Below are positions 38,754-46,284 of a stretch of 64,000 nucleotides of DNA, piece by piece. The notes beneath the pieces are model-generated. The model was not told the DNA's origin. It worked only from the letters and a program-made list of their open reading frames with translations, and ran no database searches. A program made the position numbers and the translations under genes. The DNA is taken from the NCBI RefSeq assembly GCF_004363005.1, contig NZ_SNYH01000004.1:248001-312000 (forward strand), read 5' to 3'. How positions within the stretch are numbered: the stretch's first letter is position 1; each line of letters starts with the position of its first letter. The DNA comes from Tenacibaculum caenipelagi (GTDB taxonomy: Bacteria; Bacteroidota; Bacteroidia; Flavobacteriales; Flavobacteriaceae).

Positions 38754-39338
38754 TTAACTACGTCCTTTCAACACACTTTCTATATCTACTAAGGCAAAAC
38801 CTTTGGCTTTTAGTAAAATTAAATAGTGATATAGTAAATCGGCTGCTTCGTTTTTAAATAACTCGTCATTATTGTCTTTCGCTTCAATAACTACTTCTAC
38901 AGCCTCCTCTCCTACTTTTTGTGCTACTTTATTAATACCTCTTTTAAAAAGCTTATTAGTGTAAGAAGTTTCAACATCATTATCTATTCTATCAGAAATA
39001 ATGCTTTCTAATTCATATAAAAAACCTTTAGAAGTTTCTTCGGCAAAACAAGAAGTTGTTCCTTTATGACAGGTTGGCCCCTCAGGAGTTGCCTTAATCA
39101 ATAACGTATCGTTATCACAATCTATTTGAATGTCATTTACCCATAAAAAATTCCCTGACTCTTCTCCTTTTGTCCATAACCTATTTTTAGTTCTACTGAA
39201 GAACGTAACCTTACCTTCTTTTTGTGTTTTAGCTAATGCTTCTTCATTCATATAACCTAACATCAACACTTGTAAAGTAATATTATTTTGAATTACGACT
39301 GGAACTAGTCCGTTTCCTTTTGTAAAATCTATGTTCAT
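38754..39338 (-). CDS. hisI: Bifunctional phosphoribosyl-AMP cyclohydrolase / phosphoribosyl-ATP pyrophosphatase
   Basis: HisIE carries out steps 2 and 3 of histidine synthesis. The HisI part (1-105) has [31 protein letters not shown], then [21 protein letters not shown] with metal-binding cysteines and aspartates. The HisE part (about 110-194) has the alpha-helical pyrophosphatase phrase [14 protein letters not shown] and [13 protein letters not shown]. Total 194 residues. It overlaps hisF by 4 bases (ATGA) and is the last gene of the operon. Confidence 0.97.
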
Positions 39339-46000: not shown

Positions 46001-46016
46001 GTTGTTTTTTGAATGG

Positions 46017-46029
46017 GTTTGAGTAAATC
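46017..46029 (-). other. 13-nt segment upstream of hisG complementary to the his terminator loop
   Basis: On the minus strand this is GATTTACTCAAAC, the exact reverse complement of the RNA segment from 46093 to 46081 (GTTTGAGTAAATC), which covers half of the terminator 5' arm and its loop. It lies 17-29 bases before the hisG ATG. Its role is not known. Confidence 0.7.
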
Positions 46030-46066
46030 GTTTTTCGAGAAGATAATTCCTGGCGCCTTAGGAAAT

Positions 46067-46099
46067 AAAAAAACCCGTTTGATTTACTCAAACGGGTTT
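46067..46099 (-). terminator. his operon attenuator (intrinsic terminator)
   Basis: In the minus-strand transcript AAACCCGTTTGA pairs perfectly with TCAAACGGGTTT around GTAAA and is followed by seven U. It lies between the histidine-rich leader peptide and hisG, so it would stop transcription when histidine is plentiful. Confidence 0.9.
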
Positions 46100-46113
46100 A
46101 AAAAATATCTTGA

Positions 46114-46182
46114 TTTTATTCAATACATTTTCAGCTCGCCTGAGTGCAAGTATGAAAATGATGATGATGTAATTGAATAAAA
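46114..46182 (-). promoter_or_regulatory. Leader hairpin arms flanking the histidine codons
   Basis: TTTTATTCAAT inside the leader reading frame (46182-46172 in the transcript) is complementary to ATTGAATAAAA (46124-46114). The pairing would enclose the histidine codons and would be opened by a translating ribosome. It is a candidate 1:2 stem of a classical attenuator. Confidence 0.6.
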
Positions 46183-46187
46183 CTCAT
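46131..46187 (-). CDS. hisL: Histidine-rich leader peptide of the his operon
   Basis: The 18-residue reading frame reads MSFIQLHHHHFHTCTQAS followed by TGA. Five of six residues at positions 7-12 are histidine, four of them consecutive. It begins 13-20 bases after a promoter-like -33/-7 pair and lies directly before an intrinsic terminator and hisG. In other bacteria such peptides sense charged tRNA-His by ribosome stalling. The peptide itself has no expected function. The composition and position together leave little doubt. Confidence 0.92.
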   Translation of the reverse strand: MSFIQLHHHHFHTCTQAS

Positions 46188-46206
46188 GTCTTTTGTTTTG
46201 TTGTTA

Positions 46207-46239
46207 CAAAGATTGGTTATTTATTTTTAATTATGCAAA
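46207..46239 (-). promoter_or_regulatory. Promoter of the his operon
   Basis: On the minus strand TTTG (46239-46236) is followed after 21 bases by AATCTTTG (46214-46207), one mismatch from TAnnTTTG. Transcription would start just upstream of the leader ATG at 46187. Confidence 0.55.
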
Positions 46240-46258
46240 CTTTTTTTGTAAAAAAACA

Positions 46259-46284
46259 AAAAACTACCCATATGGGTAGTTTTT
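46259..46284 (-). terminator. Terminator after typA
   Basis: A perfect palindrome, AAAAACTACCCAT with its reverse complement, and a T-rich continuation on the minus strand. It lies 20 bases after the typA stop. Confidence 0.88.

Follow-up and report, generated by a model that had tools for sequence, protein, structure and literature searches.

Comparative analysis of a predicted histidine attenuator upstream of flavobacterial hisG and of a third pairing partner for its terminator strand

The enterobacterial hisL leader (Rfam RF00514) combines a leader peptide with His codons, an antiterminator that depends on ribosome stalling, and an intrinsic terminator before hisG, and the leader described here shares all of these. 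To our knowledge, no element after the terminator of the E. coli his leader pairs with that terminator. His leader peptides have been reported in some Firmicutes (PMC9413887, PMC2965389), and a transcriptome study of F. psychrophilum pointed strongly to leader attenuation ahead of operons for amino acids, the hisG and pheA 5' elements of that species being found in other Flavobacteriaceae genera without Rfam hits (PMC9723704). The structured hisG 5' element of F. psychrophilum is very probably the same element as the one described here, although the parts of that account available to us give neither its anatomy nor the element termed region 5 below (PMC9723704). Because leader attenuation and a conserved hisG 5' element have already been suggested there for flavobacteria, the attenuator itself is known in kind; it is here followed across the class. 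A sequence-only reading of this DNA had pointed to such attenuation outside the proteobacteria. The comparison supports it here, but in view of the reports on Firmicutes and F. psychrophilum it is not new there.

Control at two levels is known for the B. subtilis trp (TRAP) and tlrB leaders (PMC12288461). In the former, in contrast to the his leader, the sensor is the TRAP protein rather than a stalled ribosome, and the RNA parts are different. The tlrB leader likewise employs a leader peptide, with both transcription and translation attenuation (PMC12288461), but it senses tylosin instead of an amino acid and belongs to another phylum. In S. meliloti, the terminated attenuator RNA rnTrpL works in trans on the mRNA of a different trp operon (PMC7298713), whereas here the sole exact match lies in the attenuator's own operon.

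The window, namely the entire stretch of 64,000 nucleotides that was analysed, carries a his operon on the minus strand with hisG as its first gene. On the basis of gene names read from the ORFs, the operon runs to a hisIE-like ORF at 38754. The closest named relatives of its hisG are from Tenacibaculum, with 93% identity to Tenacibaculum sp. L6. The leader sits between hisG and the end of a GTPase gene (48073-46304, minus strand), which we take to be typA-like. All of the elements that the sequence-only reading had named are present at 46001-46240 on the minus strand, a strand which that reading had left unspecified, and their coordinates are listed in Table 1 together with those of region 5.

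Table 1. Features of the his leader and of the start of hisG, in window coordinates
Feature	Position	Strand	Details
Promoter, Bacteroidota -33/-7 type	46239-46207	minus	predicted; TTTG (46239-46236), N21, AATCTTTG (46214-46207)
Leader peptide ORF	46187-46131	minus	MSFIQLHHHHFHTCTQAS + TGA; HHHH 46169-46158, fifth His 46154-46152
Leader stem P1	46186-46172 with 46124-46111	minus	predicted fold; encloses His codons and region 2
Hairpin inside P1	46160-46153/46133-46126 and 46150-46146/46139-46135	minus	predicted fold
Region 2	46145-46137	minus	ACTCAGGCG; antiterminator 5' strand, within last leader codons
Region 3	46099-46081	minus	terminator 5' arm 46099-46088, loop GTAAA 46087-46083, first two 3'-arm bases
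Region 4 and U tract	46082-46067	minus	terminator 3' arm 46082-46071; U tract 46073-46067
Region 5	46029-46017	minus	GATTTACTCAAAC, 13 nt; exact complement of GTTTGAGTAAATC (46093-46081)
Alternative helix, region 5 with hisG start	46029-46020 with 45999-45990	minus	predicted fold; clade-limited
hisG	46000-45143	minus	first operon gene

The promoter-like pair noted earlier stands in altered form. Matches of the sigma-70 type occur at the level of chance (5 found, 4.6 expected), and a -33/-7 pair, following what we take to be the Bacteroidota consensus, fits better. When relaxed, this motif pair precedes 79 of 171 related leaders, as compared to 3.3 in letter shuffles. Directly upstream of the his promoter, at 46259-46284, is a strong hairpin with T runs that looks like the terminator of the typA-like gene. 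It matches the Phe_leader family of Rfam below threshold; indeed, the Rfam matches in the window (PyrR, Phe_leader and others) all fall below the gathering score and were judged to be chance.

The reading frame of the leader comprises 18 codons followed by a stop codon, as first read (ATG AGT TTT ATT CAA TTA CAT CAT CAT CAT TTT CAT ACT TGC ACT CAG GCG AGC TGA). The stem proposed around its His codons is recovered as P1 in the predicted fold of 46220-46065, which has an energy of -38.3 kcal/mol versus -18.9 (sd 3.2) for shuffles (z -6.0), the terminator being included in this value. The terminator with seven U is likewise in place before hisG, with 12 pairs and a 5-nt loop at 46099-46071 and seven T at its end. 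The antiterminator, originally given as ACTCAGG with TTTGAGT, is real and proves to be longer: region 2 pairs with CGTTTGAGT (46094-46086) in a helix of nine pairs, two of which are G-U. Region 3 is thus common to the pairings with regions 2, 4, and 5. Between the terminator and region 5, at 46067-46044, lies a small hairpin, TTTCC..GGAA, with the palindrome GGCGCC in its loop. A hairpin also occupies this place in some Tenacibaculum relatives, one of which (L010) has the loop palindrome GGTACC. As a conserved feature such a hairpin was rejected, with z<-2 in just 12 of 89 spacers and a z of -0.2 for the window itself.

For comparison, 220 upstream regions were assembled: the window, 79 named loci (the best 80 of 560, less L013), and 60 family, 40 class, and 40 order sequences chosen by hand. 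By grouping, 156 of these belong to Flavobacteriaceae, 28 to other families of the order, and 36 to other orders. Conservation of the His codons among relatives, set beforehand as the test on which the attenuator could fall, was found nearly throughout. A short ORF with at least three His in seven residues is present in 217 of the 220 regions (156/156 in the family, 27/28 in other families of the order, 34/36 in other orders) and, in a separate count, in 79 of 80 loci; three regions (L145, L161, L243) lack one by this rule. The His codons are CAT in 851 cases and CAC in 111. The leader peptide mostly ends in QA followed by R, S, N, or K, and the codons for this tail constitute region 2. In two leaders shortened by an earlier stop (L080, L098), the pairing letters of region 2 are largely kept.

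The covariation that was to be sought in homologous leaders is also observed, the antiterminator letters changing together with those of the terminator arm. Matched letters of regions 3 and 2 include CGTTTG/CAAGCG, CGTCTGA/TCAGGCG, and, in other orders, GGCTTACC/GGTAAGTC. The 2:3 pairing has a median energy of -13.0 kcal/mol and a median z of -3.0, with z<-2 in 165 of 202 leaders, and 3:4 pairing holds in 351 of 351 alignment cells. An intrinsic terminator lies between leader and hisG in 204 of the 220 regions by the rule used, which misses L080 and L025 (by eye, L080 has one); 11 of the 16 regions without it are from other orders. For P1, the mean pairing energies are -7.4 with its own partner, -5.1 with swapped partners, and -3.9 with shuffled ones. 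Since the own partner falls within the best 5% of swaps for just 37 of 172, the comparative support for a P1 stem is moderate.

A His-run leader ORF, an intrinsic terminator, and a mutually exclusive antiterminator placed in the last leader codons are thus found together, and they support the his leader as a ribosome-mediated transcription attenuator that would respond to histidine. When His-tRNA is scarce, the ribosome would stall on the His run and leave region 2 free to pair with region 3, whereby no terminator would form and RNA polymerase would read into hisG. When histidine is plentiful, the ribosome would reach the stop codon and cover region 2, 3:4 would form, and transcription would end. 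The same outcome is predicted for an untranslated leader, in which region 2 would be held in the P1 hairpin. On the basis of the codon positions and the size of a ribosome footprint, a stall on any one of the first four His codons should free region 2, and a ribosome at the stop codon should cover it.

The comparison provides support for His attenuation across a Bacteroidota class that lies beyond the reach of the Rfam his leader model. RF00514 is not among the window matches at E up to 1, and no Rfam family exceeds its gathering cut-off in 20 loci. In none of 39 relatives' genomes does RF00514 pass the cut-off (controls, 1 of 14). Weak matches to it occur in 35 of the 39, one of them at a his leader (G379) with 28.4 bits versus a cut-off of 49.

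The classical ribosome-stalling model advanced at the outset is accordingly supported in its leader, antiterminator, and terminator, but it was incomplete, for a third partner of the terminator strand had been missed. This partner, region 5, is located downstream of the terminator and ends 16 nt before the hisG start. Its complement takes in the terminator 5' arm and loop, together with the first two 3'-arm bases. Across the genome of the window, the 13-mer is present solely at region 5 and, on the reversed strand, in the terminator; being confined to the his leader, it gives no second target for the terminator loop, a candidate that was dropped.

In 78 sequences with a terminator (the window and named loci), the pairing of a locus's own arm and loop with its own spacer has a mean energy of -14.4 kcal/mol, as compared to -5.7 with shuffled spacers. 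The own terminator beats all terminators with a different loop in 59 of the 78 rows; in the other 19 the swap test failed. When 41 sequences that have loops of 5 nt and spacers no longer than 75 nt are aligned, 95.7% of 507 cells are paired in 3:5, and 20-48% when the strands are slid. Two loop columns contain UA 25, CG 7, AU 5 and AU 31, CG 5, UA 1, respectively, with two unpaired each. On a hisG tree, which was built by a quick method and has weak support (stars on 11 of 78 inner branches), the terminator loop changes at least 14 times among 69 rows, and these changes are mostly matched by region 5. With the region 5 letters written facing the loop, matched examples are GCAAA/CGTTT in T. piscium, GCTAA/CGATT in Psychroserpens burtonensis, and TTA/AAT in a Dokdonia; in a Bizionia, ACCAA/TGGCT retains four of five pairs. 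Loop changes in two sister species (L031, L041) have no compensating change in region 5, and some rows, L018 and L074 among them, depart from the matching. Tree-based paired tests of single loop positions yield two to three supported independent pairs each, all in the expected direction or tied and none against, numbers far too few for significance. In T. piscium (L007:2410-2512), one and the same substitution relative to near relatives is seen in the loop of the terminator, in region 5, and at the hisG start (ATGAGCAAA).

The wobble pairs bear on the nature of the molecule. Among 44 distinct stretch pairs, with G-U and A-C scored alike when the 3:5 register was chosen, G-U occurs at 51 of 306 terminator G/T positions and the mirror A-C at 7 of 222 terminator A/C positions (Fisher p 3.5e-7, relatedness ignored). 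This excess fits pairing of the sense RNA and argues against both a site in the DNA and a simple inverted repeat.

Region 5 ends a median of 15 nt from the hisG ATG (quartiles 13-18) and lies a median of 21 nt from the U tract (quartiles 18-34). The spacing is not strict: 9 of 126 sequences have 30-46 nt between the end of region 5 and the start codon. Given the tight distance to the start codon and the looser one to the U tract, region 5 seems to be placed by the start, which favours control of hisG translation. Furthermore, RNA polymerase reaches region 5 only once the choice between terminating and reading on has been made, so region 5 cannot influence this choice in cis.

Scored at z<-3 and with all misses counted, including the 16 of 220 regions without a terminator by rule, region 5 is present in 126 of the 220. 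These comprise 106 of the 156 Flavobacteriaceae, 17 of the 28 that belong to other families of the order (f2 10/11, f76 3/4, f65 1/1, f68 3/6, others 0/6), and 3 of the 36 assigned to other orders. It falls short of this threshold in 50 of the Flavobacteriaceae and in 33 of the 36 from other orders, 11 of the 36 having no terminator by rule against which region 5 could be scored. The f65 sequence, L229, carries an unrelated terminator, CCTGCCGAA-gtgt-TTTGGCAGG, and a region 5 that fits it, CAAACACTTAGGC (-15.2 kcal/mol, z -5.6). The three that pass under the label of other orders are L152, L167, and L177; the last is marginal (z -3.1), and the first two have, by eye, Flavobacteriales-like leaders and are perhaps misbinned contigs. 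A short spacer as the reason for lacking region 5 holds only in part: the U tract lies 40 nt or less from the ATG in 20 of 47 family misses with a terminator, and the remaining ones have spacer room, yet no region 5. The pairing was sought in other attenuators as well, and it is found in 0 of 16 pheA loci with a terminator (lowest z -2.4) and 0 of 10 ilvD attenuators, which speaks against a general attenuator feature, although the pheA spacers are short and give little power in this respect.

In the preferred reading, a second, putative tier of control acts on translation through the terminator strand. In mRNA that has read through, region 3 and the terminator loop would pair with region 5, thus covering the hisG ribosome-binding region and lowering hisG translation. 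The Bacteroidota hosts of region 5 make little use of Shine-Dalgarno pairing. Regions 2 and 5 share the target GTTTGAG in region 3, such that 2:3 and 3:5 are mutually exclusive; the latter is thus a conserved helix beside the hisG start that is incompatible with the antiterminator, as expected of a dual attenuator. By virtue of this competition, a stalled leader ribosome would keep off both termination and the 3:5 block, and once histidine returns, his mRNA already made would be silenced via 3:5. The helix might form in cis, making a pseudoknot with the terminator hairpin, or terminated leader RNA might supply region 3 in trans. Energies computed in cis count against this reading. For 133 sequences whose spacers have 40 nt or more, region 5 being present in some and absent in others, plain cis folds give means of -25.6 kcal/mol for the terminator state and -14.3 kcal/mol with region 4 masked, and 3:5 wins in 2 of 11 that were inspected (L082, L127). 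An estimate for a pseudoknot that keeps the lower stem, made with a rough penalty, comes out close to neutral, with a median of +0.9 and values under zero for 27 of 127. The effect of this tier, its sign, and its action in cis or trans are all putative. For the reading as a whole, in which ribosome-mediated attenuation by histidine is joined by a tier acting on translation, the pairings and covariation come from comparison and the function and effect are proposed; it is put forward tentatively, with the chances for and against it nearly balanced.

The same pairing may instead serve an sRNA. In this alternative, which we regard as unlikely, the loop and 5' arm of the terminated leader RNA would bind region 5 of the his mRNA and repress hisG or destabilise the message. 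With the cost of opening paid, the apical part of the hairpin is predicted to bind region 5 on a second molecule favourably for 123 of 127 sequences that have region 5 and for 1 of 30 that lack it. In one clade, region 5 mirrors both hairpin arms by eye, as antisense hairpins do. There is also a precedent in S. meliloti, where rnTrpL, the terminated trp leader, destabilises trpDC mRNA (PMC7298713). A cis arrangement, however, predicts identical covariation, and the genome, with no further exact copy of the 13-mer, shows no sign of another target. The specific proposal that terminated his leader RNA, released at plentiful histidine, shuts the hisG ribosome-binding region in trans, and possibly in cis too, is rather improbable by our reckoning. 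If it were true, a single stalled-ribosome decision would set both transcription and translation via one RNA strand in much of an order. An activating role is a still less probable proposition; here region 5 would sequester the start codon of hisG until region 3, as an anti-sequester, paired with region 5 and set the codon free. The predicted fold for the window does show region 5 paired to the hisG start, the group with GTAAA loops and ATGAG starts has a region 5:start median z of -3.8 (n=35), own starts outrank swapped ones overall (mean rank 0.25, below 0.05 in 53 of 126), and in L007 the loop, region 5, and hisG start bear the identical change. Sequences with ATGAC starts, on the other hand, mostly keep region 5, yet its pairing to the start is poor in them; mean ranks for the individual start types are 0.39-0.96, apart from L045, a single case with 0.04. 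For this reason sequestration was rejected as the common function and kept as clade-limited. Activation would, moreover, need 3:5 under starvation, while region 2 holds region 3. For the window's clade, including the window itself, pairing of an unoccupied region 5 with the hisG start also counts against the preferred reading, since it would repress in the very state meant to be on, and this complicates the sign of the 3:5 effect there.

It is very unlikely, in our judgment, that the 3:5 duplex of the read-through mRNA is instead a cleavage or protection signal that separates the leader from the hisG message. A double-strand nuclease could make use of a conserved helix that reaches 13 bp, but such a signal does not need a fairly fixed distance to the start codon combined with a looser one to the terminator. 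That the leader is a classical attenuator and nothing else, with region 5 arising by chance or as an inverted repeat at the DNA level (a protein site or a template-switch product), appears highly improbable. Template switching can maintain inverted repeats, and many relatives do carry the attenuator without region 5. Against this explanation stand the matched changes over at least 14 loop changes, the asymmetry between G-U and A-C pairs (its Fisher value ignoring relatedness), the slid and shuffled controls, and the lack of region 5 in the pheA and ilvD leaders examined.

What the translational-tier reading adds is a conserved third partner for the terminator strand, located beside the hisG start. 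In the literature covered on leader attenuation in Bacteroidetes and Flavobacteria and on attenuator-derived trans RNAs, as far as its accessible text goes and with most subscription journals outside its scope, no account of such a third partner was found. If the proposed step is true, amino-acid attenuators can hold a built-in second brake on mRNA that escapes termination.

Other attenuators were encountered among these genomes. A Phe-rich leader precedes pheA in 17 of 18 loci examined, and the window's genome has a pheA attenuator of its own (L199) with the leader MLQNVWQGFYFYFYFFSKRRDFVSYC and the terminator AAAGTCTCGA/TCGAGGCTTT. Upstream of ilvD in relatives (L206, L207, L209, L212, and L216) are Ile/Val-rich leaders (for example MRNQVLNIISIIIVIVIIAT), with a terminator, ACCTTCC/GGAAGGT, positioned ~200 nt before ilvD; the ilvD of the window's genome (L200) has no such attenuator by the rule used. 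Finally, short and mutually similar hairpin repeats such as AAAGATACCCACTTTCGTGGG are seen by eye directly before the hisG start in L018, L037, L044, L047, L059, and L076, and these probably represent a mobile intergenic repeat of flavobacteria.
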